This document shows positions 1,434 to 16,837 of a stretch of 64,000 bases of DNA, piece after piece. The translations under genes and the position numbers were made by a program. The notes under the pieces were generated by a model that saw only the letters and a program-made list of their open reading frames with translations, did not search any database and was not told the DNA's origin. Origin of the DNA: Bacillota bacterium (GTDB taxonomy: Bacteria > Bacillota > Clostridia > Saccharofermentanales > Fastidiosipilaceae); the NCBI GenBank assembly GCA_030057555.1, contig JASGUU010000006.1:1-64000 (forward strand). The letters are read 5' to 3'. Within the stretch, counting starts at the first letter, position 1. Each line of letters opens with the position of its first letter.

Positions 1434-1553
1434 TGTGTTGTTTTAATAGTTATTGTTTTTATTAGTACTTATATAAAACACATATATTACTTAATGATTT
1501 TGAAGGCTATATCTACAGCAGGCAGGAAATAGATGGAAGTACTGGAGGGAAGA

Positions 1554-4500
1554 ATGAGTAAACGGATGAAAAGACTGGCAGTGCTGCTGATCGCAGTCAT
1601 GCTGGCCTCGGTTTCACATGTCGGCCAGCTGTCGCTTTCGGCAGAAGAACGTATTGACAGCGGGAATCCGCCGGCAGAAGAGGCGCTGCTGTCTCTGTCG
1701 GGGGACACAGAGGCAGCGCTTCTGCCTGATACGGAAGAGACAGCAGACTATTCCGATGTCCCGAGTGTTCCGGAGGATCAAAGCGATGCCGGGGACGCGG
1801 CAGCGGAGGAGAATTCTGACTTTGCTGAAGCGAGTGCCGACAACCTGCCTTCACGCGAGAATGATCCTGAGGATATCTCCGATGACGCGCCGGTGTTGGA
1901 AGATGACGAAATGGAAGCTGTCACGGCTGCTGATCCGTCGGAGATCGAACAGGAAACGGCCGTTCGCGCTGCCAGCCTTCGGCAGGGGCGGGCCATCAAC
2001 TCCTTCGATACCCTGAAGGCAGCCATCGAGGACCCGGCCCGTGAGGAAGAAATCATCGTCCCGGGCGGAGACTATCTTTTCACGGATACGATCACGGTTT
2101 CGAAGCCTCTGGTGCTCAAAAATGCGGCGGGAGAAGGCGTGAACTTTCTCTTCGGACTGCCGAATGACAATGCTTCTTCCCTTGGCAAGACGATGATGGA
2201 CATCATCGCAGACGGCGCTCTGACACTGAACCCCGACAGCGATGCCAGCTTCGTTTTTGATGGCCAGTCGCAGGAGACAAATACGTCGGATAAGGGCGTG
2301 TTCATCACCGTCCGCAGCGATGCCTCTCTGACCGTCAACCACGGCCTGTTCCGCAACTCCATCAACGCCGGCATGCAGACGGCGCCCATCTATGTGGACG
2401 GCGGCAGCTTCACACTGAACGATGGCGTAATTGAGAACAACCAGATCAGCCATGTGGAAACGATTTCGAACTGGCGTCTGACCAGTCGCGAGCATGTGGC
2501 TCATGGCTACGCAAAAAGTGCAGCGGTTGCTGTACGGAATGCCGGCAGCTTCGTCATGAACGGCGGTGCGATCCGGAATAATGCAACTGTTGATAATCCC
2601 AATTTGGCAGGATCGCATCTGCCCACCGGCATTGCCGTCCAGAATGGAACAGTTGTCATAAACGGAGGAACCCTGTCAGGAAATGCTACTCTGACCCAGG
2701 GCGGAGCCCTGTATGCGGCACCCAGATCTCAGGTTACGATCAATGACGGTGAGTTCAGCAACAACATGGCCCGTGATGGGGGAGCCCTCTTTTTCGACTG
2801 GGCCAGCACGGGAACCATAAACGGAGGCACGTTCACAGGCAACAGCGCCGACGGCATGGGCGGCGCGGCTGCGATCACGGATCGCTACATGGTCGGCGAT
2901 GAAAATGGCAGTGCCATGGTAAATCCTTCGTTTTCCGGCTATACCCATGAACAGTGGGAAGCGATTGGACTGGGCGTCAAGCTCACCGTAAATGGCGGGG
3001 ATTTTACAGAGAACCAGGCCTTTGCCGGCGGCGCCTTCTATGTTTCGAGCAATAACACGGTGATCAATGCCGCCAACATCAGCAACAACACTGCCACCCG
3101 CTTCGGCGGAGGGATTTACCTCAGCTGTGTTCCCTATGTCCTGCAGCTGCGCAATGTCTATATCGACGCCAATACAGCGGATGACAGCCTCGATCAGTAC
3201 ATCTCGATGTCGGATGGCAGCGGGGGGACGATTGGCATGCCCGCCGGCAGCGGCGGCGGCGTCTGGTACTGCCCGACCGGCGACAGTGAGATCTATGTGT
3301 CGAACGGCGTTGCCTTCAATACGAACAGCGCGACCCACGACGGCGACGACTTCACCAGCGTGACGAAGAAAGACGCCAACTACGAGATTACGCTCTTCGA
3401 GCGCATGCTGGGTGGCGGTCTCGTCTCCTGGTACAGGGATGGCGACTCGCAGAGCGATGCCGTGCCCCGCTATGACGGCAGCGGCGATCCCATCAGCCCG
3501 ATTGCCGGCAGCTCCGATTCCTTCAGCCTCAAGGCTGTGGCGGGAGAGGATGCCTTCACGGCCGCGAGGGAGCTGGCCATGGTCATCATGTCCGGCAATA
3601 CCGCCGGCCGTGGTGGTGCCATAGGGACAAACGGCACCGTGATTTTCGGCGATCCGGACAAGGAGTTTTCCGTAACCGTAACGAAGACATGGGATGAGAA
3701 GCTGGCCGCTGACGCGCAGCCCGTTGAGATCGCTCTCTATGTGGTTCTCGGCGAGACAGAGCGTCAGATTCAGAAGGCGACTCTGACGGCGGACAGCGGC
3801 TGGCAGTTTACCTTCCCCAATCTGCCTCTCGAGGCCAGAAACGAGAGCATCCACTATCGTGTGAAGGAGCTCGGCAGCGGAGGCTACGATGTCGTCTATG
3901 AGAACAACGACTTCAGCACGGCGAATCTGACCGCCAATCAGGATGTGGCCGTTGGCATCACCAACAAATGGATCAGTACCAGCATTCCCGTGACCAAGTT
4001 CTGGGATGACAATGAGGATCAGGATGGCCTGAGGCCGGAGAGTGTCACAGTCTGGCTGCTGGCTGATGGTGAAGATACGGGCGAGAGGCTTGTCCTCTCT
4101 GAGGCCAACAGCTGGACGGATACGTTCAGCGATGTGGCTGTGTACAAGGGCAGTGAGAAGATCACATACAGCGTCACGGAAGATCCGGTGGAAGGATATA
4201 CGCCGGCTGTTGAAGGAGATGCCATAGAGGGCTTCCGCCTGACGAACAGCCATGTGCCCGAGCTGATCGACATCTCCGTGACCAAGACCTGGGATGACCA
4301 TGACGATCAGGATGGCCTGAGGCCGGAAAGTGTCACGGTCAGACTGCTGGCCGACGGTGAGGATACGGACGAGAGTCGCGTTCTCTCCGATGCCAATAAC
4401 TGGACGGACACGTTTACGGCTCTGGATGCATACAGGGACGGCACGAAGATAGACTACACAATCGAGGAGGATCCGGTTGGCGGATACACGCCGGCTGTTG

Positions 4501-5030
4501 ACGGTGACGCCGAACAGGGCTTCAGGCTGACGAACCTCCATGTGCCCGAGCTGATTGACATCCCTGTGACCAAGGTCTGGAATGACAATGACGATCCCGA
4601 GAGGCCGGAGACGATCACTGTCCAGCTGCTGGTAGACGATGTGGAGTCGGATACAGCGATTGAACTCAAGGCAACAGATAACTGGCAGGGTGCTTTCACC
4701 GGTCTGCCGAAATATCGCAATGGCGTGGAGCTGGTCTATACAGTCAGGGAAGTTATTGCTGCCGGCAGGTACGACGTCGAGATCAGCGGTAGCTCTGACA
4801 CAGGCTTTACCATTACCAATACACCTGTTCCAGAAGAGACGACTGCCACGACTGAGACGGAAGAGACGACGACGGAGCCAAGTGAGACACCGCCGGTGGA
4901 GCCGACGAGTCCGGAGACTTCTTCCGAGGTACCCAAAACAGGCAGGAACGACGGACCGTACTGGCTTGGCCTGCTGCTTCCTCTGTTCGGTCTCGTTCTG
5001 ATACTCAGGCGCAGGCGCAGCTTCGAGTAG
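1554..5030 (+). CDS. Wall-anchored surface protein: beta-helix, four Cna_B repeats, VPKTG anchor
   Basis: A secreted, probably sortase-anchored adhesin or stalk protein of 1158 residues. The start at 1554 is chosen because GGAGG lies 5 nt upstream. A signal peptide (about residues 1-31) is followed by an acidic, low-complexity region to about 145. Next comes a long right-handed beta-helix type region (about 155-690) with recurrent GGxFxxNxAxxGG turns. Four Cna_B domains follow, starting near residues 703, 806, 904 and 1001, each with VTKxWDD-type beginnings. After a Thr/Glu/Pro-rich linker the C-terminus has VPKTG near 1126, a hydrophobic helix and an RRRRSFE tail, a variant LPxTG sorting signal. 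The tail is nearly identical to that of the protein at 13576, so both probably use the same sortase, which is not in this window. Ligand unknown. Confidence 0.88.
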   Translation: MSKRMKRLAVLLIAVMLASVSHVGQLSLSAEERIDSGNPPAEEALLSLSGDTEAALLPDTEETADYSDVPSVPEDQSDAGDAAAEENSDFAEASADNLPSRENDPEDISDDAPVLEDDEMEAVTAADPSEIEQETAVRAASLRQGRAINSFDTLKAAIEDPAREEEIIVPGGDYLFTDTITVSKPLVLKNAAGEGVNFLFGLPNDNASSLGKTMMDIIADGALTLNPDSDASFVFDGQSQETNTSDKGVFITVRSDASLTVNHGLFRNSINAGMQTAPIYVDGGSFTLNDGVIENNQISHVETISNWRLTSREHVAHGYAKSAAVAVRNAGSFVMNGGAIRNNATVDNPNLAGSHLPTGIAVQNGTVVINGGTLSGNATLTQGGALYAAPRSQVTINDGEFSNNMARDGGALFFDWASTGTINGGTFTGNSADGMGGAAAITDRYMVGDENGSAMVNPSFSGYTHEQWEAIGLGVKLTVNGGDFTENQAFAGGAFYVSSNNTVINAANISNNTATRFGGGIYLSCVPYVLQLRNVYIDANTADDSLDQYISMSDGSGGTIGMPAGSGGGVWYCPTGDSEIYVSNGVAFNTNSATHDGDDFTSVTKKDANYEITLFERMLGGGLVSWYRDGDSQSDAVPRYDGSGDPISPIAGSSDSFSLKAVAGEDAFTAARELAMVIMSGNTAGRGGAIGTNGTVIFGDPDKEFSVTVTKTWDEKLAADAQPVEIALYVVLGETERQIQKATLTADSGWQFTFPNLPLEARNESIHYRVKELGSGGYDVVYENNDFSTANLTANQDVAVGITNKWISTSIPVTKFWDDNEDQDGLRPESVTVWLLADGEDTGERLVLSEANSWTDTFSDVAVYKGSEKITYSVTEDPVEGYTPAVEGDAIEGFRLTNSHVPELIDISVTKTWDDHDDQDGLRPESVTVRLLADGEDTDESRVLSDANNWTDTFTALDAYRDGTKIDYTIEEDPVGGYTPAVDGDAEQGFRLTNLHVPELIDIPVTKVWNDNDDPERPETITVQLLVDDVESDTAIELKATDNWQGAFTGLPKYRNGVELVYTVREVIAAGRYDVEISGSSDTGFTITNTPVPEETTATTETEETTTEPSETPPVEPTSPETSSEVPKTGRNDGPYWLGLLLPLFGLVLILRRRRSFE
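3973..4554 (+). repeat. Tandem Cna_B domain repeat in DNA
   Basis: Two consecutive units of about 290 bp (near 3973 and 4267) are highly similar at the DNA level. For example, a segment beginning GATCAGGATGGCCTGAGG occurs at about 4017 and again at about 4307. They encode Cna_B domains 2 and 3 of the surface protein. The similarity suggests recent duplication, so copy number may vary between strains. Confidence 0.8.
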
Positions 5031-5177: not shown

Positions 5178-5206
5178 TTGAAAAAGTAGTGGGAGGTGTG
5201 TATAGT
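5178..5206 (+). promoter_or_regulatory. Promoter upstream of sipW-fibre operon
   Basis: TTGAAA (5178-5183) and TATAGT (5201-5206) are separated by exactly 17 bp, a good sigma-A promoter. Transcription should start near 5213 and run about 280 nt before the sipW start, passing a strong terminator hairpin at 5358-5406. Confidence 0.6.
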
Positions 5207-5357
5207 AAACCTAAAAGCTCCGCATAGAAACATTTTCCGCATGTAGTGAAGTATTTACAGACTGAAGGTCAGGTACACAGTAGTGACAGACGGGAATAGA
5301 CAAGTGACAAATACTGAGGCACTGTGCGAGTTGTCTCCAAAAGCAAAATAAAGGCTG

Positions 5358-5406
5358 CCCGCCCCTCTGTATCAGCTGAGCTGCTGATACGGAGGGGCGG
5401 GCTTTT
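5358..5406 (+). terminator. Strong leader hairpin with U tract ahead of sipW
   Basis: An 18-bp arm, CCCGCCCCTCTGTATCAG (5358-5375), is matched by its complement at 5384-5401 and followed by CTTTT. No coding gene lies between the promoter at 5178 and this hairpin. It therefore either ends a small RNA of about 190 nt (5213-5406) or acts as an attenuator in the 5' leader of the fibre operon. I did not recognise a known riboswitch core in 5213-5357. The stretch 5099-5177 holds nothing I could identify. Confidence 0.75.
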
Positions 5407-5496
5407 CCCATTCAATGAACAGATGAGGGACGTGCCGGTGAATGCCCGGGGCAGGCAGGGAGAATAAAACAGCAGCATTCACGGTGAGTGGACTTA

Positions 5497-6216
5497 ATGA
5501 AAAAAACAGTTAAAAAAGTTTGGAATATCGTTACAAGCATCATAGTTGCTCTCATTGTTCTGCTGGCCATCGCCCTGGTAGGTGTCCGGCTGGCTGGCTT
5601 CAAGGTCTTTACTGTACTATCCGGTTCCATGGAGCCCACCTATCATGTGGGTTCGCTTATCTATGTCAGGAATGTGAACTATCAGGAGCTGCAATCCGGC
5701 GATGTCATTACATTCATGCTGGATGAAAACACCGTGGCCACCCACCGTGTCGTGGGGGTCGTCCCTGACGATGAAGATCCAGCCGTCATACGCTTCCGTA
5801 CCAAGGGAGATGCCAATGAGGCAGAGGACGGCGCTCTGGTTCACTACAGGAACGTGATCGGCATGCCGGTCTTTTCCATTCCCCGTCTGGGCTATGTGGC
5901 GGATTACATCCAACATCCGCCTGGAATGTACATAGCGATCGCCGCCGGAGCAGTACTTCTGCTTCTGGTATTCATTCCCGACCTGTTCGAGGAGGATGAC
6001 AAGAAGAGGAAAGCGAGGGCACACAAAGAGGACGCTCGTGCCGATAGCCGCAGAGATTCTGGGTCTGATCCCGATGCAGCTGCATTGGCAGAGCGGGCGG
6101 GGCGGCTGAGACAGGCCGCGGAAACACTGGTTGCAAAGGAAGAACATCAGGCGCTCGATGGACGGCTGGCGCAGGCCACACAGGGCGAGACGACTGGCCG
6201 ATCCTCAGGCGCATGA
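5497..6216 (+). CDS. sipW: SipW-like signal peptidase I (Ser/His type)
   Basis: A membrane signal peptidase of the archaeal/ER type that processes TasA-like fibre subunits. The catalytic serine lies in SGSMEPTYHVG (Ser about 42). The general base is histidine in ATHRVVGV (His about 83) in place of the lysine of ordinary LepB, the hallmark of SipW-class enzymes. A TGD-like KGDAN motif follows. There is one N-terminal membrane helix, a second near residues 145-165, and a long charged cytoplasmic tail. ATG at 5497 is preferred over GTG at 5488 because GGTGAG sits 8 nt before it. The gene is first in an operon with five proteins carrying cognate SipW-type signal peptides, which defines its probable substrates. 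Confidence 0.92.
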   Translation: MKKTVKKVWNIVTSIIVALIVLLAIALVGVRLAGFKVFTVLSGSMEPTYHVGSLIYVRNVNYQELQSGDVITFMLDENTVATHRVVGVVPDDEDPAVIRFRTKGDANEAEDGALVHYRNVIGMPVFSIPRLGYVADYIQHPPGMYIAIAAGAVLLLLVFIPDLFEEDDKKRKARAHKEDARADSRRDSGSDPDAAALAERAGRLRQAAETLVAKEEHQALDGRLAQATQGETTGRSSGA

Positions 6217-6308
6217 AGCAGCGCGAGCGGAAGGTTCCGCTCGGCACGATTGACGAGGGCTATGCCGCAAGGCTCCCTATAAGACATCACAAAAGGAGGT
6301 TTTCACAG

Positions 6309-6962
6309 ATGAAAACAAGACGCAAAGCACTGTTCCTGGTTCTCTGTGCGGTAATGCTCGTTGCCGCTTCAGTGCTGGGAACCATGGCCTACCTGACCTC
6401 TACAGACGAGGTGAAGAACACGTTCACCGTCGGCAAGGTGGCTATTAAGCTCGACGAAGCCAAGACCGACAGTGACGGCTACGGCGTTCCGGATCCGTCT
6501 GCTCCCCGTGTCCAGGAGAACGATTATAAGCTGATTCCCGGCCACAAATACAGCAAGGATCCTATGGTCACGGTTCTAAATGGCAGTGAGCTGAGCTACA
6601 TCAGAATGATCGTCACTGTCAGCAAAGCCGATGAGCTCGATGCCATCTTCAGTCCTGACGGCGCCAGCCTGATCTCGATCTTTGGAGGCTATGATTCGAA
6701 TAACTGGATCTACAAGGGCAATGTCAAGGACGAGGTCGACAACACCCGCATCTACACGTTCTGGTACAAGGAGATGGTCGGTGCACCCTCGGCTGACGTA
6801 GCTCTTGACGCCCTGTTTGATTACATCGCTGTTCCCGGCAACATCACCAATGCGCAGCTCGCCACCATCGAGGGCATGACCATCACCGTCAATGCCCACG
6901 CGATTCAGGCTGACGGCTTCGCTAATGCGGCAGCGGCGTGGACCGCTTTCGACAGCCCGTAA
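6309..6962 (+). CDS. TasA/camelysin-like secreted protein 1
   Basis: A 217-residue secreted protein, probably a fibre subunit. AAGGAGG lies 9 nt before ATG 6309. The N-terminus has the SipW-type signal layout: a positive start, a hydrophobic stretch and then GTMAYLTSTDEVKNTFTVGK, the conserved post-cleavage region of camelysin/TasA proteins. The rest is predicted beta-sandwich with a LIPGHKYSKDPMVTV strand that recurs in its neighbours. It follows sipW directly and begins the run of paralogues. It could alternatively be a minor anchor or cap subunit; sequence alone does not separate these roles. Confidence 0.82.
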   Translation: MKTRRKALFLVLCAVMLVAASVLGTMAYLTSTDEVKNTFTVGKVAIKLDEAKTDSDGYGVPDPSAPRVQENDYKLIPGHKYSKDPMVTVLNGSELSYIRMIVTVSKADELDAIFSPDGASLISIFGGYDSNNWIYKGNVKDEVDNTRIYTFWYKEMVGAPSADVALDALFDYIAVPGNITNAQLATIEGMTITVNAHAIQADGFANAAAAWTAFDSP

Positions 6963-6997
6963 TTCCTCGTTCGTATTAAAGACAGGAGGAAACTGAT

Positions 6998-7558
6998 ATG
7001 AATAAAAAGAGACTCATGCTGGTCGTAGCGTTGGTGCTTCTCGTAGCAGGAGTGGTTGTCGGTACGATTGCCTGGCTGACAGACACGACGGATGAAGTCA
7101 AGAACACCTTCACCACCAGTGACATCGATATCACTCTTACAGAGTCCGAGAATCTGAATCTCAAGATGGTACCCGGCCATGTCATTACCAAAGACCCCGT
7201 GGTAACAGTCGAAGCAGATTCCGAGGCATGCTATCTGTTCGTAAAACTGGATAAATCAGCGAATTTTGACAGCTTTTTGACGTATTCAATGGCAGATGGC
7301 TGGACGCAGGGAAATGGGACCGATATTCCCTCAAATGTGTTCTATCGTACTGTTGCGTCCTCGAGTGCCGATCAGGAATTTGCTGTTCTGAAGAACAATG
7401 AAGTTACGGTTCTCGGCACAGTTACCAAGGAGATGATGAACGGGCTGACAGCGGAGACTTATCCCACCCTGACCATCACCGCCTACGCTTCCCAGCAGTA
7501 CAAGGCTGCCGGAACGGAATTCACCGCCAAAGAAGCTTGGGACAACGTAAATCCCTGA
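6998..7558 (+). CDS. TasA/camelysin-like secreted protein 2
   Basis: A 186-residue paralogue of the preceding protein, with GACAGGAGG ahead of the ATG. The signal region has GTIAWLTDTTDEVKNTFTTS, followed by the same PGHVITKDPVVTV strand seen in the protein encoded at 6309, then a variable C-terminal half. It is the shortest of the five. Its similarity to protein 1 within the first 100 residues suggests tandem duplication. Likely exported and processed by the SipW-like peptidase and assembled at the surface. Confidence 0.82.
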   Translation: MNKKRLMLVVALVLLVAGVVVGTIAWLTDTTDEVKNTFTTSDIDITLTESENLNLKMVPGHVITKDPVVTVEADSEACYLFVKLDKSANFDSFLTYSMADGWTQGNGTDIPSNVFYRTVASSSADQEFAVLKNNEVTVLGTVTKEMMNGLTAETYPTLTITAYASQQYKAAGTEFTAKEAWDNVNP

Positions 7559-7613
7559 TACATGAAGCTTATCGATACCCCATAGCTTTACGATCATCAA
7601 GGAGTAAAAGATC

Positions 7614-8357
7614 ATGAAAAAGAGAATCACAGCGATTTCCCTTGGCATTGCTCTTCTGGCAATTGCCATCGTAGGCGCATCCATCGCCTACTTCACGGAC
7701 ACTGATGCCGAGACCAATGTCTTCACCACGGGCAACGTGGATATCACTCTCATAGATGATTTCACGCAGAACTCCAAGCTTCTTCCCGGCAGTCAGACCA
7801 TGAATGCAGTTCCCAAGAAAGTCTCCATTAAGCTGGAAGACGGTTCCGAGGACGCTTATGTCTGGTATGAGTGGCTGATTCCCGCCGCGCTTGACAGCAC
7901 CGATGGCTCTACTGGCACCAACAATATTGTCCATGTCAACTCCCTTGGTCGTACCTGGGATAAGTACCGTGAGAATCCGAATTTTTGGGCCGAAGGCCAG
8001 ACGGAAGCTCTGCCTCTGGACCAGACTTGGGACCATGATCCCGATGTCGAGCTTAGCCTCACTGGTCCTCAGGGCTTTATCGGCACTGAGACCGTTGATG
8101 GCGTTCTTTACAACAAGTACCTGGTCCTCTACCACGGCATGCTGAGCGCTGGTGACGAGACTACTGTGTCCATGAGCCAGGTCTATCTGGACAACAAGGT
8201 CGACGCTTACACCAACGACGACGGAGATCTTGTCTATACCTATAATGGCGCTGACATTGACTATGACTTCACCAATGGTGTCAAAATCATTGTCCGTGCA
8301 TACGGCATGCAGGCCGCCGGCTTTGCCGACGTCTACGCTGCCTACTCCGCTTACTAG
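7614..8357 (+). CDS. TasA/camelysin-like secreted protein 3
   Basis: A 247-residue protein with the cognate signal GASIAYFTDTDAETNVFTTG followed by NVDITL, as in classical TasA. AAGGAG precedes ATG 7614. The mature part keeps a LLPGSQ turn in place of the PGH turn of paralogues 1 and 2, and is the longest of the simple fibre-type proteins, with a Trp/Tyr-rich centre. Of the five it looks most like a major TasA-type subunit, but that ranking is inference. A 264-bp gap with inverted repeats follows it before the next paralogue. Confidence 0.82.
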   Translation: MKKRITAISLGIALLAIAIVGASIAYFTDTDAETNVFTTGNVDITLIDDFTQNSKLLPGSQTMNAVPKKVSIKLEDGSEDAYVWYEWLIPAALDSTDGSTGTNNIVHVNSLGRTWDKYRENPNFWAEGQTEALPLDQTWDHDPDVELSLTGPQGFIGTETVDGVLYNKYLVLYHGMLSAGDETTVSMSQVYLDNKVDAYTNDDGDLVYTYNGADIDYDFTNGVKIIVRAYGMQAAGFADVYAAYSAY

Positions 8358-8621
8358 GAACAATCCATTTGATTTCTCCTGGTAAACACTTCCACCCATG
8401 GCGTGCGCTTCACCAGCTGCGCGCCTGAGGGGAAGTCAGCATGGCCGAACCGCCAGCTTAACTTTCTCACATATGGCTCTGTGCCCTTTGGGGTGTCGGG
8501 GTACAGACCATATGAGAGCACCCGGTAGTATCGGATGTTCTCATATGGTCGGAAGAGACCATGGAAAGTATCAGAACTCCGAATGGATATACACGAAAAC
8601 GGCTTGAGAGGAACAGGGACT
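8358..8621 (+). other. Intergenic gap with CATATGG inverted repeats
   Basis: This gap splits the fibre operon. It contains CTCACATATGGCTCTG (near 8465), CAGACCATATGAGAG (near 8505) and TTCTCATATGGTC (near 8540), which can form alternative stem-loops. No U-rich tract follows, so this is not a clear terminator. It may be a processing or attenuation element lowering expression of downstream genes. No gene is supported here. Confidence 0.45.
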
Positions 8622-9176
8622 ATGAAGCGGAAACTATTGATTCTGTCAGTGCTGGCCATCTGCATTGCCACGCTTGCCGTCGGAAGCATTGCTTTCTTCA
8701 CCTCGGAAGACAAGGCGCACAACGTGATCACGACCGGCGGCGTGGAGATCACGGTGCAGGAATGGGCAGACGCTGACAAGACAGAAGCCTTTGAAGACCT
8801 GACCGGCATCATGCCGGGCACGGCCGTAACCAAGATCGCGGAGATCAAGAATACGGGCGCGTCCGCCGCATGGGTAAGGGTAAAGGTCGACAAGGCCATC
8901 GAGCTCGATGGCGAGGGCACGCCCGATACGGATATGGTGGAGCTTGATCTCAACACAGTTGACTGGACGCTGGGTGCAGATGGCTACTGGTACTACAAAG
9001 TGGCTCTGGAACCCGGCGACGTAACCCAGCCGATCTTCACCTCTGTGACCTTCAACGCCACCATGGGTAACGAATACCAGAGTGCAACGGCAACTGTGGA
9101 CATTGCTGCCCAGGCCGTTCAGACCGCCAACAATGGCGCTACCGTCATGGACGCCATGGGTTGGCCCAGCCCCTAA
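8622..9176 (+). CDS. TasA/camelysin-like secreted protein 4
   Basis: A 184-residue member of the SipW-cognate family. ATG 8622 is taken as the start because a GAGAGGAACAGGG ribosome site precedes it and the hydrophobic signal begins there. The signal ends in GSIAFFTSEDKAHNVITTG followed by GVEITVQEW, and the mature part has the IMPGTAVTKIAEIKNTGAS strand that is closest to camelysin. It ends only 12 nt before the acidic protein gene, so the two are probably co-translated. Confidence 0.82.
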   Translation: MKRKLLILSVLAICIATLAVGSIAFFTSEDKAHNVITTGGVEITVQEWADADKTEAFEDLTGIMPGTAVTKIAEIKNTGASAAWVRVKVDKAIELDGEGTPDTDMVELDLNTVDWTLGADGYWYYKVALEPGDVTQPIFTSVTFNATMGNEYQSATATVDIAAQAVQTANNGATVMDAMGWPSP

Positions 9177-9188
9177 GGAGGCCCAGAA

Positions 9189-9920
9189 ATGAAGAAGAAG
9201 AAAGTATTCGCGCTTATTCTAGGCCTTGTACTGATTGGCAGCCTGGTGCTGCCAGGTGCGATGGCGCTCTCTTCCGACGCGGATTTCCCTTCGGATGAGC
9301 TTCCTGTCAGCGACGAGGCTGTGTCACCAGAGACAGAAGAGGCGCCAGACGCAGAAGACATGCCCGAAGCGGAGGACGTGTCCGAGGCAGAGGACGAAGA
9401 GCCTGAGGCAGAAGACGAAGCGCCCGAGGCAGAGGACGAAGAGCCTGAGGTGGAGGACCTTACTGGTCCCGAACCGGAAGATGTGACACCTGTGGAGACG
9501 CCCGCACCGGATGAAACCCCAGCACCAGATGAGGCGGAGGGGGAAGATACCGATGTGCCTGTGGCAGAAGAGCCTGCCGAGGAAATACCCTTGGGAGAGC
9601 CAAGCATCCAAAACTATGATGACAACAGTACCTTTGAGTTGGGTTTGTATGACAGACTCATGGCATGTACTTCCATCGAACAGATCGAAGCAATAGGAAA
9701 ACAAATCTCTGAGGACGAATTTCTTGAACTAACCGAAGAAGAGCTGGCAGAAGTCGAGAGTCACATCCTCTCGTTTGAACTCCTGCTTGAACCAGAGCCC
9801 ATCCCTGCAGTAGTTGTAGAAGACTCCGAGCCACCTGTGAAGAGCGAAATTGTTGTTCCTACCGTGTCCTTCACAAATGTAGCTCCCCTTGGTGATCCAG
9901 TTGTTGGCGGAGATGATTAA
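9189..9920 (+). CDS. Highly acidic secreted protein
   Basis: A 243-residue protein with a signal peptide (about 1-26, ending PGAMA) and an extremely acidic, repetitive region (about 28-140) built from EAEDEEPE-like units and then Pro/Glu/Thr stretches. The C-terminal third is less biased and has no recognised domain. AAGGAGG precedes the ATG. It has no membrane anchor or sorting signal. I do not recognise the family. Position between fibre proteins and the vWA adhesin suggests a secreted spacer, cation-binding or assembly-modulating role, which is only inference. The underlying DNA repeats (about 9384-9460) may vary in number. Confidence 0.75.
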   Translation: MKKKKVFALILGLVLIGSLVLPGAMALSSDADFPSDELPVSDEAVSPETEEAPDAEDMPEAEDVSEAEDEEPEAEDEAPEAEDEEPEVEDLTGPEPEDVTPVETPAPDETPAPDEAEGEDTDVPVAEEPAEEIPLGEPSIQNYDDNSTFELGLYDRLMACTSIEQIEAIGKQISEDEFLELTEEELAEVESHILSFELLLEPEPIPAVVVEDSEPPVKSEIVVPTVSFTNVAPLGDPVVGGDD

Positions 9921-9930
9921 GGAGGCTGGC

Positions 9931-12900
9931 ATGAAGACTAGAAAATTCATTTCATTAGTATTAATTTGCCTATTGTCTTGTGCCATGCTGATCCCCGCCA
10001 TTCCCGTTTCGGCAGAAGGTGAAACTCCGGGAGAGGGGATGGTCATCAACAAAACCGCCACGGATAATGATGACGGAACTTACGAGATACAGCTGGAAGC
10101 CTACGCCACCGGTGAGGCGATCATCAGCGAAGAGACGCGGGATATTCCCACGGACATCATCCTCGTGCTCGACCAGTCCGGGTCCATGGATTATGATTTT
10201 TCGACGACCGTTTTCAACAGTTACGGGACAAGAACCAACAGCTACTTTTATGACCGCCGCCATAATGGAGGGAGTAATAACCTCTGGTACCAATTGGATG
10301 ACGGCAGTTATGCTTCGGTCTCAGTGGTGAGGCAGGGAGTTTCAACGTATACGACATGGCCCGCCAACTACCGAAACCGCGATTATTATGATGTGAGTAA
10401 TAATCTGTGGGAGAAAGTCGGAGACGAGTACAGGCAGGTCACTCTAACTAGGGAATGGGTGTGGGATTGGTTTAACTCGCACTATGAATTTACTTACGAA
10501 TTTTCCGATGGTACGAGTGTTACTAGTAATGGGAATGACACTGTTCCGAATCTCGGATCTCATGCGCCACTTTATTCTGCCTATACTGATTACGAGTATA
10601 CTTACACTTATACCGATAACAATGGTGTGCTCCAAACCATCGGAACTTCCACCGGAGCAAACACCAATTTTACGGGTGCTACGTTCTATGAAAGAGGTAC
10701 CGCTAACATTACCCGGCTCGCCGCTTTGAAAAACGCTGTTACTACTTTTGCCAACAGTGTGGCAACCAAGGCCGCCGGCCCGGATGGTAACCTTGCCACC
10801 ACCGAGGACAACGTAAACCACCGCATAGCTGTGGTGGGCTTTGCCAGTCAATCCGGCTACGGGAACAATACGGAGTTGCTGTCCATCAGCGGCACAAACA
10901 GCGGAACCGTAGGTGTGGCTTACAACAACATAACCCCTCAGAACCTGCTCGACGTTGTCCAAGATATGGATACGACCGCCGGACAGACCATGGTCACAAA
11001 CGCCATCAATGCCCTGGCGGCTCGGGGCGCGACAGAGGTTGATCTCGGCATGGACATGGCGGAGCGCATTTTGAACGCCAATCCTGTTCCTCCGGAGCAG
11101 GAGCGCAATCGGGTCGTGGTTGTTTTTACTGATGGTTCTCCGACAAGGTCTGATGGATTCGAAAAGGATGTTGCTGAAGAGGCCATTTCGATTGCGGAAA
11201 ACATTAAAAATGCCGGGACGACCGTGTACTCCGTCGGTATTTTCGACGGAGCCGATGCCACCAGCCCCGGAACCGAACCCAGTGGAGATTTACCTCCAAA
11301 CAGTTCCAATTTGCCTGCGGCCTCCAACTGGTTCATGCAGAACCTGTCCAGCAATAACGGCGCCGTTCAGGATCCCAGCTATTACCTCTCCGCCGCCGAC
11401 GCTGAGACGCTGAACAATATCTTCCAGCAGATCGCGGAGCAGATCGAGGAAGGAGGTACCACCGTCACGCTGGGCAGCGAGACGATCATCAAGGACATCA
11501 TCGCCCCGTCTTTTGCTCTGCCCGACGGTGCAACAGCAAACGACATCACGCTGGAGACCTGGAAATACAACGGTCCCGACTATGGCGCGGCCAATGCCTG
11601 GACGAAGAATCCCGATGCCATGGGCGCCACAGCAGTCCTGGGAAGCACGAACCCCGGCGATCCGACGACCACGAATAATCAGCTGGATGTTACAGGATTT
11701 AATTATTCGGAAAACTGGGCCGGTCCCGTCATGGAAGATGGAGCCATAACCGGCTACCGCGGACACAAGCTGGTTATCAAATTTACTGTGAGACCACGCC
11801 CTGGCTTCTTGGGCGGCAACCAGGTTTTCACCAATACCAGCGCCGGTGTTTACGAGAATGCCGAAGCGACCGAGCCGGTCCTGACCTTCGATCGGCCCAC
11901 CGTGGACGTTCCCATCCAGACCATAAACATCACAACTCCTTCGGAGAATAAGAACGTTTATCTCCTGCAGGGAGTGCCCGCCACAGACATTCACGGCGGC
12001 GTTTCCGTCACAATCGGAACCGTGTCGCTGAATCTTGATCCGGCAGCCGTGAACTGGGGTTTGCAACCCTGGCAAAATGAATATGTCGATGTCTCTGTTG
12101 TATATAAGGATGCCAACGGGGATCCGATCCCGCCAGAAGGTTTGCAGAATGTCACCGAAGATACACATTACTCTGTCACCGTTACGGTAGAGCCCAAGGC
12201 AGCCGGAACGGTACCCGGAGCAGGTGTCACCCAGACCGGCAACGTTTCCCTCAATGTGTTCAAGCCGGAGCTGACCTTCAAAGACGGCTCGGTCTACTAT
12301 GGCGCAACTGCTCCAACAGATTCAGATTACGCTGCCAGCCTGACCAGCACTCTGTGGAAGCATAACGGCGTTCTGTCCACCGACGTTACCATGGTCGGCA
12401 CAGCCCCGGTTCTCGCTTTGACCTACACGCCGGAGCCAGGGAAGATCGTGGATGGCAAGGTGAACACAAAGCAGGATATCGCTGTTGACGCAACCGTGAA
12501 GATCGGGGCGACTGATGTAACGACTCACACCACGTTCCTGCACACCGCCTGTGATCCGCCCTGCGGCTGGAACGTAGAGAATCCGGACGGAAGCCCGGCT
12601 TTCCTGCTCCATGTTCAGACCTGTTCGCTGACTATCACAAAGACCGGCGGCGCTGCAGATGAATCCTATGTCTTCGATGTTTTCAAAGATGGTGTGAAAT
12701 ACTCCGAAGTCAGCATCTGGGGAAATGGCAGCGAGACGCTCTACGAGCTGCCTGTCGGCAGTTACACCATCGCGGAGAATACCGGCTGGAGCTGGCGCTA
12801 TTCCGCCAATAACGGAGGCACAGCCACCCTGACGGCAGTAAATCCCAACGGCAGCATCACCTGCAGCAACACGAAGACCAAGTACAGCTGGCTCAACGGC

Positions 12901-12945
12901 TTCAGTGAGATCGTTCGGAACATTTTTGCTCCGATTGAGGAATGA
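9931..12945 (+). CDS. Large secreted vWA-domain adhesin-like protein
   Basis: A 1004-residue secreted protein. AAGGAGG lies before ATG 9931 and the signal peptide ends near residue 28. The von Willebrand A domain has a MIDAS metal site (DQSGSMD near residue 80, later VVVFTDGSPTRSDG near 397), interrupted by a Tyr/Thr-rich insertion of about 170 residues after the first strand. Isopeptide/Cna-like beta domains fill 520-960. The C-terminus (WLNGFSEIVRNIF) lacks an LPxTG signal or membrane helix, unlike the two anchored proteins of the locus, so it may be held by fibre subunits. vWA proteins with this layout typically form pilus tips; ligand unknown. Its stop overlaps the next reading frame. Confidence 0.87.
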   Translation: MKTRKFISLVLICLLSCAMLIPAIPVSAEGETPGEGMVINKTATDNDDGTYEIQLEAYATGEAIISEETRDIPTDIILVLDQSGSMDYDFSTTVFNSYGTRTNSYFYDRRHNGGSNNLWYQLDDGSYASVSVVRQGVSTYTTWPANYRNRDYYDVSNNLWEKVGDEYRQVTLTREWVWDWFNSHYEFTYEFSDGTSVTSNGNDTVPNLGSHAPLYSAYTDYEYTYTYTDNNGVLQTIGTSTGANTNFTGATFYERGTANITRLAALKNAVTTFANSVATKAAGPDGNLATTEDNVNHRIAVVGFASQSGYGNNTELLSISGTNSGTVGVAYNNITPQNLLDVVQDMDTTAGQTMVTNAINALAARGATEVDLGMDMAERILNANPVPPEQERNRVVVVFTDGSPTRSDGFEKDVAEEAISIAENIKNAGTTVYSVGIFDGADATSPGTEPSGDLPPNSSNLPAASNWFMQNLSSNNGAVQDPSYYLSAADAETLNNIFQQIAEQIEEGGTTVTLGSETIIKDIIAPSFALPDGATANDITLETWKYNGPDYGAANAWTKNPDAMGATAVLGSTNPGDPTTTNNQLDVTGFNYSENWAGPVMEDGAITGYRGHKLVIKFTVRPRPGFLGGNQVFTNTSAGVYENAEATEPVLTFDRPTVDVPIQTINITTPSENKNVYLLQGVPATDIHGGVSVTIGTVSLNLDPAAVNWGLQPWQNEYVDVSVVYKDANGDPIPPEGLQNVTEDTHYSVTVTVEPKAAGTVPGAGVTQTGNVSLNVFKPELTFKDGSVYYGATAPTDSDYAASLTSTLWKHNGVLSTDVTMVGTAPVLALTYTPEPGKIVDGKVNTKQDIAVDATVKIGATDVTTHTTFLHTACDPPCGWNVENPDGSPAFLLHVQTCSLTITKTGGAADESYVFDVFKDGVKYSEVSIWGNGSETLYELPVGSYTIAENTGWSWRYSANNGGTATLTAVNPNGSITCSNTKTKYSWLNGFSEIVRNIFAPIEE

Positions 12946-12959
12946 GAAAGGAGGGAGCG

Positions 12960-13562
12960 ATGATGTATCAGAGAAAGAGCAAAGAAGCTAAAATGCGCAG
13001 ACTGCTGGGACGGCTCTTCAGAAACAGCCGCATGGCGACCATTACGGTATCTGTTGTGCTCCTTCTGGCGCTGACCATCGGCGGTACCATCGCCTGGCTC
13101 AGCACAAAGGCAGGACCCCTCGTAAATCCCTTCACGCCCTCCAAGGTGACCTGTGAGGTGACGGAGGAGGATTTTAACGACGAAACAGGCATAAAGACTA
13201 ATGTGAATGTGAAGAACACCGGCGACACGGAGGCCTATATCCGCGTCAAGCTGGTGACGTACCGGACGAATGATGCTGGTCAGCATATCGGCGGTACGGC
13301 AGCGCTGCCTACATTTACTCCCGGCGAAAACTGGGTGGCATATGGGGGTTTCTACTACTATACGCAGCCAGTTGCCGCGGGAGCATCGCCTGCAAGCGCT
13401 CTGATCAGCAGCATAACGCTGGTATCCTCATATGACGACGCTGACGGCGGCCGCCAAGCCATAGACATCGTAGCGGAAGCCATCCAGAGCAAGCCGGCAA
13501 CGGCAGTCGGCGAAGCCTGGGGTGTGAGCATTACGCCAGGCATCGTAAGCGACTATGATTAA
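12960..13562 (+). CDS. TasA/camelysin-like secreted protein 5
   Basis: About 200 residues. ATG 12960 is supported by AAAGGAGGGA directly upstream; an in-frame ATG at 12942 overlaps the previous stop and has no ribosome site. A longer basic N-terminal extension precedes the hydrophobic stretch and the variant SipW-type site GGTIAWLSTKAGPLVNPFTP, where the usual acidic cluster is replaced. The camelysin-like core carries NVNVKNTGDTEAYIRVKLV. Its position between the vWA adhesin and the wall-anchored protein suggests it joins these to the fibre, an inference from order only. Confidence 0.8.
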   Translation: MMYQRKSKEAKMRRLLGRLFRNSRMATITVSVVLLLALTIGGTIAWLSTKAGPLVNPFTPSKVTCEVTEEDFNDETGIKTNVNVKNTGDTEAYIRVKLVTYRTNDAGQHIGGTAALPTFTPGENWVAYGGFYYYTQPVAAGASPASALISSITLVSSYDDADGGRQAIDIVAEAIQSKPATAVGEAWGVSITPGIVSDYD

Positions 13563-13575
13563 GGAGGTGAAAGCA

Positions 13576-14571
13576 GTGAGAAAGTCATGTAAGGCGATCT
13601 TCTCGTTCGCGTTTGCCCTGCTCCTGGTCATGGGCCTGGCGTCCACAGCCTTTGCGGCAGGCCCCTCCATCACCTTTGAGGGCTTCTCCGGCGGCTTTGA
13701 TTTTGGACCGGACGGCGAGCACACGGAGACCGACCTGTTCGACAGCTTCAAGGGCGTCATGCCCGGCGATATCCTGACGGAAGAGATCACCTTTACCAAC
13801 GCCGCCACGGACTGTGCCTTTGTCAACCTCTACATGAGGGCCGAAGCTCATGACGAAGACAATCCCCTCAGCGAAGAAGTCGCGGCTTCCGGCGAGACCG
13901 TCGCGACCATGACAGAGTTCCTCTCCCAGCTTTCCATGAAGGTCTGGAATGGGTCGGAGCTGATCTACGACGCCTCCCCGGATGAGCTCGATGGACTGCA
14001 GGATAACAAGTTTCTCGGCACTTTCCGTACAGGAGAGACCACGGTACTCAAGGTGGAGCTGACAGTTCCCATCGACCTGGACAACAGGTTTGCCAACCGC
14101 ATGGGCGAGGTGGACTGGATATTCCTGGTGGAGGCCTTCGACGAGAGCGAGCTCATCGTCCGGAAAATCTGGTCCGATGGCAACGGCAATCACGCGGACG
14201 ACAGTGTAAGCATCACGCTTCTGAAGGATGGCCAGCCGACGGATGAGACGGCGGAACTGAATGCCTCCAACGGCTGGACCTACACCTTCGAGCGTCTGCT
14301 GGAAGGCCATGTCTGGTCGGTGGAGGAAGACGGGGTTCCCGAGGGCTATACCGTGAGCTATGAGACCGAGGGCAATACCGTTTTCATCACCAATACGCTG
14401 ATCCCGGAAGAGACGACAACGGAGCCGGTTGAGACAACGCCACCCGAGCAGACGGAACCGGACGAGGTACCCAGAACCGGACGAAATGACGGACCGCACT
14501 GGCCTGCGCTGCTCCTGCTGCCCCTCGCAGGACTGGCCCTGATCGTGAGGCGCAGACGCAGCTTCGAGTAG
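13576..14571 (+). CDS. Wall-anchored camelysin-like/Cna_B protein with VPRTG signal
   Basis: A 331-residue protein starting at GTG 13576, with AAGGAGGTGA six nt upstream. Signal peptide 1-26 is followed by a camelysin-type beta domain (about 27-190, with FKGVMPGDILTEEITFTN). One Cna_B stalk (about 192-275), a Thr/Pro/Glu linker and a VPRTGRNDGPHW sorting motif come next, then a hydrophobic helix and the RRRRSFE tail. The combination of fibre-type domain and wall anchor makes it the best candidate for tethering the fibres to peptidoglycan. The tail matches the protein encoded at 1554 almost residue for residue, implying one shared sortase encoded elsewhere. It is the last gene before a terminator. 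Confidence 0.86.
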   Translation: MRKSCKAIFSFAFALLLVMGLASTAFAAGPSITFEGFSGGFDFGPDGEHTETDLFDSFKGVMPGDILTEEITFTNAATDCAFVNLYMRAEAHDEDNPLSEEVAASGETVATMTEFLSQLSMKVWNGSELIYDASPDELDGLQDNKFLGTFRTGETTVLKVELTVPIDLDNRFANRMGEVDWIFLVEAFDESELIVRKIWSDGNGNHADDSVSITLLKDGQPTDETAELNASNGWTYTFERLLEGHVWSVEEDGVPEGYTVSYETEGNTVFITNTLIPEETTTEPVETTPPEQTEPDEVPRTGRNDGPHWPALLLLPLAGLALIVRRRRSFE

Positions 14572-14611
14572 CTTCGGACGACGGCTGCCAGAATTTGCAT
14601 CGCAAATCGGG

Positions 14612-14640
14612 AACCGGGATGGAAACATCCCGGTTTTTCG
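14612..14640 (+). terminator. Terminator of the fibre operon
   Basis: AACCGGGATG pairs perfectly with CATCCCGGTT around a GAAA tetraloop, followed by TTTCG. A smaller ATTTGC/GCAAAT hairpin lies just before it. It belongs to the same family as the terminators at 5067 and 34749. Confidence 0.9.
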
Positions 14641-14779
14641 TCAGCGGAAAACACGGAAGTGCTTTTTTTATTTCCGGGATAAGTTACAATCCTTAATAAT
14701 GGCCTGCTCGAAAGACCGGCCCAAATATACACCTGCCCGTCCGCACAGGCGAACGAGCTATTGCAAGGGGGGTATTTGA

Positions 14780-16837
14780 ATGCAGTGGTGGGTCTGGCCG
14801 CTTATCGCGGTCATCGTGTCACTGGCGTCGTTTGCTGTTGCTGCGTACTTCTATTCGTATGTCAAAAACATGAAGACAGACGACAGTGCCGTAGCTAAAT
14901 GGGGGAAGCTGATTCGTCAGGGGGCCTTTGCGTTCCTGAAAGTCGAATATAAGATTCTCGCCAAGTTCCTGGTCGGGGCCGCGGTGGTGATCTTTCTTTT
15001 CCTGCCGCCGGTGTGGACCTCGTCAAACATCGGCATGAATTTCCTGAATGCGGTCATCTATCTGGTCGGTGCAACCCTGTCTGGCCTCGCGGGCCTGCTG
15101 GGTATGAGCATCGCCACGATCGCGAACGTCAAGGCCGCCGCCGCTGCCCAGAAGGGCATCACCCCTTCGTACATGGCCGGCTTCCGCGGCGGTGCGGTCA
15201 TGGGCATCGCGGTGGTGGGTATCGGTCTCTTCGGCGCCTCAATCCTTTACCTGATCTTCCATGATGTTCCCGAAGTCGGCAACATCATCCTGGCCTTCAG
15301 TTTCGGCGCCTCCTCACTGGCCCTCTTCGCGAAGGCGGGCGGCGGCATCTTCACAAAGACGGCCGACATCGCCGCCGACCTGACGGGCAAGGTGGAGTTC
15401 GGCCTGCCCGAGGACGATCCGCGCAACCCGGCCGTCATCGCGGACAACGTCGGTGACAACGTCGGTGACGTGGCCGGCATGGGCGCCGACCTCTTCGACT
15501 CCAACATCGCCTCGATCGCCGCCGCGCTGGTCCTGGCCGCTCCGCTGGGCCAGACCGGCTATATTTTCCTGCTCGGAGCGCTGGGTCTTCTGGCCTCGCT
15601 TGTCGGCATGTACTTCTCCTCGGTAAAGGAGGGTCAGCACCCGGGCCGCGCCCTCAACCGCTCGACCTACCTGACCACAGCCCTCTTCTTCGTACTGACC
15701 CTGATCGCGACGCTCGCGAGCGGCTACAACCTGCGCCTCTGGGGCGCGGCGATGCTCGGCCTGCTGGCCGGCACGGTCATCGGCTTCACCTCGGAGCTCT
15801 TCACCTCGGATGAAGGGAAGTCCGTCCAGCATGTGGCGAAGGCCTCCGTTACCGGCCCCGCCTTCACGATCATCAGCGGCTTCTCCTACGGCCTGCTCTC
15901 CTGCTTCCCGGCCCTGATCGGCATCGCGGTCGCCGCCCTCGGCGCCTACAAGATCTGCGAGCCTCTGGGCCCCGGCTATGCTCTCTATGGCATCGCCCTC
16001 TCGGCGGTCGGCATGCTCTCGATCGTTGCCATGATCACCTCGAATGACGCCTACGGCCCGATCGTCGACAACGCCCGCGGCCTGGCGGAGATGGGCGGGC
16101 TCGGTGACGATGTGCTTGAGATCACCGACCAGCTCGACGCCGCCGGCAACACGGCGAAGGCCATCACGAAGGGATTCTCGATCGGCGCCGCCGGTCTGAC
16201 GGTCATCGCCCTGCTCGCCGCCTATCAGGAAATTCTCGTTGAGATCGGCAAGCCCGCCGACTTCAACCTCCTCGACCCGCTGGTCTTCTTCGGCGTCATC
16301 ATCGGCGTGGCCGTGCCTGCGGTCTTCTCCGCGATGCTGATGATGGGTGTCGACCACAACGCGACGCGCCTCGTCGCCGAGATCCACCGCCAGTTTGATG
16401 AGATCCCCGGCCTCCGCGAGGGGAAGGAGGACGTGCTGCCCGACTATGACCGCTGCATCGAGATCGCCACGGTCGGCGCGCTGAAGGAGCTTTTGCCTGC
16501 CGGCGTCATGGCCATCGTCTCAACCTTCGTCGTCGGCTTCATCGGCGGCGTGCGGGCGATCGGCGGCTTCCTGGCCGGCAACATCTTCAGCGGCCTCCTG
16601 CTCGCCCTGCTGATGTCGAACGCAGGCGGCATGTGGGACAACGCCAAGAAGTATATTGAGTCCGGCAACTTCGGCGGCAAGAACTCCGATGCGCACAAGG
16701 CCGCCGTCATCGGCGATACCGTCGGCGACCCCTTCAAGGACACCGCCGGCCCCTCGATCAACACGCAGATCACGGTGGTTTCGCTGGTGGCCTCGCTGGC
16801 CGCGACACTCTTCGCGATGTTCTCCCTGCTCGGCTGA
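14780..16837 (+). CDS. hppA: Membrane proton-pumping pyrophosphatase, K+-independent type
   Basis: An integral membrane enzyme of 685 residues that hydrolyses pyrophosphate and pumps ions out. The family signature is complete: about 16 membrane helices, GGGIFTKTADIAADLTGK, the acidic site DNVGDNVGDVAGMGADLFD, and the C-terminal GDTVGDPFKDTAGPSIN. The residue in the diagnostic motif GNTAKAITKG (Lys near 458) is the one found in K+-independent H+ pumps, where K+-dependent and Na+-pumping forms have Ala. This residue code is established for the family; its use here is my reading. The start follows a GGGGGG ribosome site. The gene is unusually GC-rich in third positions compared with the fibre locus and stands alone between terminators. 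Confidence 0.95.
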   Translation: MQWWVWPLIAVIVSLASFAVAAYFYSYVKNMKTDDSAVAKWGKLIRQGAFAFLKVEYKILAKFLVGAAVVIFLFLPPVWTSSNIGMNFLNAVIYLVGATLSGLAGLLGMSIATIANVKAAAAAQKGITPSYMAGFRGGAVMGIAVVGIGLFGASILYLIFHDVPEVGNIILAFSFGASSLALFAKAGGGIFTKTADIAADLTGKVEFGLPEDDPRNPAVIADNVGDNVGDVAGMGADLFDSNIASIAAALVLAAPLGQTGYIFLLGALGLLASLVGMYFSSVKEGQHPGRALNRSTYLTTALFFVLTLIATLASGYNLRLWGAAMLGLLAGTVIGFTSELFTSDEGKSVQHVAKASVTGPAFTIISGFSYGLLSCFPALIGIAVAALGAYKICEPLGPGYALYGIALSAVGMLSIVAMITSNDAYGPIVDNARGLAEMGGLGDDVLEITDQLDAAGNTAKAITKGFSIGAAGLTVIALLAAYQEILVEIGKPADFNLLDPLVFFGVIIGVAVPAVFSAMLMMGVDHNATRLVAEIHRQFDEIPGLREGKEDVLPDYDRCIEIATVGALKELLPAGVMAIVSTFVVGFIGGVRAIGGFLAGNIFSGLLLALLMSNAGGMWDNAKKYIESGNFGGKNSDAHKAAVIGDTVGDPFKDTAGPSINTQITVVSLVASLAATLFAMFSLLG

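Follow-up and report, generated by a model that had tools for sequence, protein, structure and literature searches.

Gene content of the locus

The window, i.e. the whole stretch of 64,000 nucleotides that was analysed, is the start of contig C6 in a 2.9 Mb genome. Its plus strand carries one tight, almost gapless run of genes encoding a SipW-type signal peptidase, the TasA-like subunits T1 to T4, an acidic secreted protein, a vWA protein, a further TasA-like subunit (T5) and a TasA-like protein with a sorting motif (Anc). All frames are open, and both frames and order are as described in the original prediction, including the 1004-residue vWA protein without an anchor. The features are:

1533..5030, + strand: neighbouring surface protein with CnaB domains and VPKTG, outside the conserved set
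5178..5206, + strand: sigma-70-like promoter match TTGAAA-17-TATAGT, about 280 nt upstream of sipW
5488..6216, + strand: SipW-type signal peptidase, GTG start, or ATG at 5497
6309..6962, + strand: TasA-like subunit T1, frame open from 6213 (TIGR04088 above cut-off; orthologue alignment)
6998..7558, + strand: TasA-like subunit T2 (TIGR04088 above cut-off; 61% identity to the orthologue in genome G001)
7614..8357, + strand: TasA-like subunit T3 (Peptidase_M73 22.9 bits, cut-off 22.5; TIGR04088 28.7 bits)
8622..9176, + strand: TasA-like subunit T4, frame open from 8535, immediately 5' of the acidic/vWA genes in most loci
8691..8750, + strand: SipW-cleavage and putative donor-strand box of T4, AFFTSEDKAHNVITTGGVEI, of the type found in T1-T3 and T5
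9189..9920, + strand: acidic secreted protein, counterpart of the N-terminal region that fused vWA proteins have elsewhere
9858..9917, + strand: C-terminal strand-like conserved motif of the acidic protein, PTVSFTNVAPLGDPVVGGDD
9931..12945, + strand: vWA adhesin-like protein, 1004 residues (Pfam VWA match), without sorting motif
12942..13562, + strand: TasA-like subunit T5, immediately 3' of the vWA gene in 39 loci
13555..14571, + strand: Anc, with a TasA-like domain, one CnaB domain and VPRTG (about 14467-14481)

The peptidase scores 102.7 bits with TIGR02228 (cut-off 51.9) and matches NF046067 with an E-value of 2.5e-33. The match at 5178 is the best promoter-like one upstream of sipW; it reflects similarity to the consensus only, with a total number of matches close to the shuffled expectation, and is no proof alone. 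No RNA elements from Rfam were detected at gathering thresholds. Downstream of Anc, a gene at 14780-16837 resembles, as read from its sequence, a membrane H+-pyrophosphatase, and at the other end of the region the minus strand holds the start of a gene that is trpB-like in translation (2-961) and truncated by the contig end.

T1-T5 and the putative donor strand

The TIGR04088 model of SipW-dependent signals matches T1, T2 and T3 above its cut-off and T4 below it, with no match reported for T5, and every TIGR04088 match found in the genome falls within the locus. Profile comparison (hhalign) connects T4 with T1 (E = 7e-28) and with T5 (E = 8e-30), and T2 and T3 cross-match other subunits. Judged by these comparisons, T1-T5 are a single family within the TasA/camelysin superfamily. 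Profiles of T1, T2 and T5 searched against the PDB gave no useful match.

In TasA the donor strand consists of N-terminal residues 28-38, directly after the SipW site (PMC9674648). At this position T1-T5 contain a box of the form A-aromatic-hydrophobic ... N-x-F ... VxI, which recurs in 101 of 136 T proteins, in two of 39 Anc proteins and in none of 39 vWA proteins. A simple AxA signal-peptidase expression was dropped, as it did not separate T proteins from Anc proteins.

Predicted folds of T4 and Anc

The TasA-like domain of Anc is homologous to the subunits: it aligns to T4 with an E-value of 5e-14 (98.2%; hhalign), more distantly than T1 and T5 do. We modelled T4 and Anc with AlphaFold, each as a single chain, with a mean pLDDT of 79 for T4 and of 63 for Anc, the N-terminal domain of the latter reaching about 74-88. 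For both models the best solved match in Foldseek is the TasA fibre 8aur (T4, E = 3.7e-4; Anc, E = 2.2e-5; probability 1.00), at TM-scores below 0.5. In the VIA comparison 8aur is the top match of Anc (Z 8.2, 3.5 Å across 138 residues); ranked below it, among other sandwiches, are cannulae, TasA crystal forms and pilins. With T4 as query, TasA (Z 6.6, 3.2 Å across 125 residues) is tied with unrelated beta sandwiches, and the T4 rows, mostly middling sandwiches, were not taken as a family assignment. At the level of sequence profiles, T4 finds only the archaeal bundling proteins AbpX in the PDB (E = 0.18 and 0.86, not significant) and a 12-sequence Anc profile finds only TasA (E = 0.13 and 0.18, not significant), a match that a 39-sequence Anc profile did not repeat. 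Both proteins are thus predicted to adopt a TasA-type jelly-roll fold, the kind of fibre fold that had been expected of the paralogues. The T4 box has a pLDDT mostly below 50 in the monomer model, which may indicate a strand awaiting its partner, and would fit any uncertain stretch equally well.

The vWA protein and the acidic protein

The metal site of the vWA domain (DQSGS, at about 10171) keeps the DxSxS pattern at residue 81, and the domain contains inserted loops of varying length. It is followed at the C-terminus by a SpaA/CnaB-like domain and a WLNG tail. An isopeptide-forming CnaB domain is expected to have invariant Lys, Glu and Asn residues. Lys904, Glu949 and Asn980 are invariant in a four-row alignment, as expected if the C-terminal domain is of this sort. 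A sorting signal is found in none of the 39 vWA proteins of the module.

The acidic protein had been listed among the components of the system. It is present and is not unrelated to its neighbour, as it matches the N-terminal part of a relative's fused vWA protein (E = 4e-10), with which it shares LYxRLMAC...EE and the strand-like motif PTVxFxNVAPxGxPV. This C-terminal motif occurs in 18 of the 39 loci, in eight of them on a separate protein and in ten fused ahead of the vWA domain. Since the acidic and the vWA protein of the window each have their own signal peptide, the arrangement suggests a split gene rather than a frameshift. A further variation is seen in a genome of the same family, where a Thr-rich protein (272-1573 of locus L023) replaces the vWA protein, keeping its C-terminal part only, and is followed by T5 and Anc.

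Sorting signals and sortases

Anc ends in VPRTG, a hydrophobic stretch and RRRRSFE, i.e. in an LPXTG-like sorting signal; in a few of its relatives the motif is degenerate, e.g. QPDTD in locus L054. LPXTG-model matches elsewhere in the genome were set aside, as this model also responds in E. coli and archaea. The system had been proposed to be sortase-assisted, for which the support in this genome is weak. The window locus contains no sortase gene, and the only sortase match of the genome is on contig C44, away from the locus; class E and class C models fit it best, yet no class cut-off is reached. In 14 of the 39 loci, however, a sortase-like gene directly follows or overlaps Anc, and the five of these that were checked against family models are sortases. 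Nine of the 14 are of a divergent type ending in LVLYTC (L073, at 14663-15334, L085, L075, L076, L077, L078, L083, L090 and L058); the three that were scanned score below every class cut-off. Given these 14 loci, wall anchoring of Anc by a sortase is probable in the relatives and possible in the genome of the window.

Conservation of the gene set

To gather related loci, we started searches from the vWA protein or from SipW-dependent signals. In four of 188 genomes of the order (G000, G001, G019 and G020), vWA matches coincide with those to TIGR04088. An even sampling of the class comprised 391 genomes, of which 66 gave matches to TIGR04088 and 20 a vWA match, mostly a weak one; the strong matches G559, G425 and G475 contain T2, T1, T4, vWA, T5 and Anc with the polarity seen in the window, and SipW stands in front of the set in G559 and G475. 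Named genomes yielded no relative when scanned with the single vWA sequence and 70 loci when scanned with the vWA alignment. Removal of three duplicates and addition of the earlier loci gave 77 loci with a vWA relative.

In 39 of these 77 loci, the window included, T5 and then Anc directly follow the vWA gene. This applies to 32 of the 33 loci whose vWA protein has a C-terminal domain of the WSWRY type and to seven of the 44 without it; among strong vWA relatives it is 37 of 54. Within the 39, SipW lies upstream in 25 and T4 at most two genes upstream in 31, counts that are affected by several contigs stopping short of that point. The gaps between vWA and T5 and between T5 and Anc mostly range from an overlap to 20 bases. 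The Hungatella genome UBA5385 (L073) has exactly the set of the window, SipW-T1-T2-T3-T4-acidic-vWA-T5-Anc. Distances between the genes correlate for every pair (Mantel r 0.32-0.68, p 0.001), to which shared genome ancestry contributes. As the vWA alignment used as seed contains neither T5 nor Anc, their presence next to vWA is an independent result for the loci found with it; a few earlier loci had been chosen because of their TIGR04088 matches. With the same order recurring in 38 other loci, a chance local assembly of genes was rejected, and the multi-subunit set that had been noticed in the window alone proves conserved on comparison of locus content.

The record titles name Lachnospiraceae, Oscillospiraceae, Christensenellaceae, Erysipelotrichaceae and one Coriobacteriia MAG; most loci are metagenome bins, and isolated odd placements could be binning errors. 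The module is also present in Cuneatibacter caecimuris DSM 29486, Clostridium porci and Proteiniclasticum ruminis. A second layout, vWA-T-SipW-T-T-Anc, is found in some other loci, e.g. L110, with variants in L097 and L103. More generally, the vWA gene comes first and TasA-like genes surround SipW in L056, L097, L103, L110, L118, L119 and L133, several of which have an anchored protein.

The pyrophosphatase gene has a counterpart with 97% protein identity in the congener G047. Identity to the window at the DNA level (91%) ends at 14678, just before this gene, and a search of G047, a draft of 240 contigs, returned no match for the 13 kb. This absence from a draft is suggestive of gain or loss of the module between congeners and is no proof. 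In this congener (locus L153), short tandem repeats occur in the unrelated sequence past the 14678 breakpoint.

Discussion

In our view the product of the operon is probably a surface fibre of TasA type that is built by donor-strand exchange, rooted in the wall by an acceptor protein and tipped by the vWA protein. SipW would cleave the signal peptides of T1-T5 and thereby expose an N-terminal strand on each, which would occupy the groove of the neighbouring subunit. The shaft may consist of T1-T4, with T5 as an adaptor. As Anc combines a TasA fold with the lack of a donor box, we infer that it is an acceptor without a donor, i.e. it would accept a strand yet pass none on, and together with its sorting signal this would suit the base, which a sortase would attach to peptidoglycan. 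The vWA protein, with an ordinary signal peptide and no sorting signal, would sit non-covalently at the tip as an adhesin, and the acidic protein may provide a plug strand or a chaperone segment. Donor-strand exchange between the paralogues, the base and tip positions, adhesion and assembly into a single organelle are deductions from the conserved gene order, the near-touching genes, the TasA folds, the distribution of the donor box, the sortases after Anc and the lack of a sorting signal in vWA. Against them we count the missing locus sortase, the single sortase of the genome, the degenerate Anc motifs, the TM-scores below 0.5, the tie of T4 in VIA, the 39-sequence Anc profile without TasA and the restriction of the acidic motif to 18 of 39 loci.

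In a different reading, the T proteins are matrix polymers for biofilms of the TasA/BsaA kind, and vWA and Anc are separate proteins that are merely co-regulated, with no organelle made of tip, shaft and base. There are precedents, as C. perfringens BsaA polymerises alone, remains largely outside the cell and can dispense with the sortase encoded next to it (PMC7395162), and in the matrix of B. cereus TasA and CalY assemble together independently of sortase (PMC13082335). The alternative layout with vWA ahead of sipW also points this way. However, vWA is succeeded by T5 and Anc in 39 loci, and a TasA fold lacking the donor box would be less expected of an unrelated adhesin than of a base, so that we regard mere co-regulation as unlikely.

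A Spa-type pilus polymerised by sortase from unusual pilins is very improbable. It would account for the tip-type vWA protein with its SpaA/CnaB-like domain, for an anchored protein with CnaB and for the sortases in 14 relatives, but neither T1-T5 nor vWA have sorting signals and the window locus lacks a sortase. Moreover, in loci from the same search that do resemble sortase pili (L099, L101 and L105) the vWA protein is anchored, anchored proteins are more numerous and the sortase is of the TLVTC type. That the TasA-like proteins are camelysin-type metallopeptidases instead of fibre subunits can be dismissed almost entirely, since against weak Pfam Peptidase_M73 matches, one of them barely above cut-off, stand invariant columns in T1, T2, T4 and T5 that are structural (A, N, G, P, W, Q etc.) with no conserved His pair, and the TasA fibre as the best fold match of T4.

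TasA fibres are known chiefly from Bacillus, where they serve as biofilm scaffolds. The tapA-sipW-tasA operon of B. subtilis shares with our locus the SipW-type peptidase, subunits of TasA fold and a strand box that lies N-terminally, past the SipW site. The locus differs from it, as anticipated, in having five diverged subunits, a TasA-fold protein with a wall anchor, an unanchored vWA protein and no TapA match above cut-off, the only match to the TapA model being T4 with 12.6 bits (cut-off 80). Among clostridial systems on record, the nearest is sipW-bsaABCRSD of C. perfringens (PMC7395162), likewise a clostridial SipW operon of secreted polymer proteins, to whose BsaA family (TIGR04090) T1-T5 show matches of 12.5-39.6 bits, all below the cut-off of 60. 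In the bsa operon a sortase gene adjoins sipW, and three other secreted proteins are encoded along with a two-component system, whereas the gene run in the window has five subunits, vWA, the anchored protein and no two-component system; BsaB, BsaC and BsaD were compared by description only. Spa-type pili resemble the locus in their vWA tip adhesin of the RrgA/SpaC kind with a CnaB-like domain and in their wall-anchored base protein. In contrast to them, the shaft subunits and the vWA protein of the window lack sorting signals, and the locus has no pilin-polymerising (class C) sortase. Archaeal bundling pili (AbpX) and cannulae are beta-sandwich filaments formed by strand exchange, with weak profile and fold matches to our proteins, but these systems are archaeal, and we know of no SipW-vWA-anchor operon among them.

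A description of the T-vWA-T5-Anc set was not found in the literature searched, outside of which lie preprints and many subscription journals, in line with the earlier view that this is no pilus type already on record. The operon is a real, conserved and apparently undescribed type; it is neither a tapA-sipW-tasA operon nor a sortase pilus and most likely encodes a seemingly complete hair-like fibre of gut-type Clostridia. One may go further and see in it a separate assembly class of Gram-positive pili, with a donorless base of TasA fold, a dedicated sortase and a non-covalent vWA tip held by a plug strand from the detachable acidic N-terminal segment; in this full form the proposal is tentative and rather doubtful. 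If true, a wall-rooted TasA fibre with a vWA tip would give Gram-positive commensals a second route to adhesive hairs beside sortase pili, and the named strains that carry the module make the fibre model testable.

Two VPxTG anchors had been assigned to the system. Anc belongs to the conserved set, but the protein encoded at 1533-5030, a large surface protein with four CnaB domains and VPKTG, lies outside the interval given for the system and outside the set in the loci read. The 3' ends of the two genes have 73-78% DNA identity across two stretches, and one anchor tail seems to have been copied from the other.
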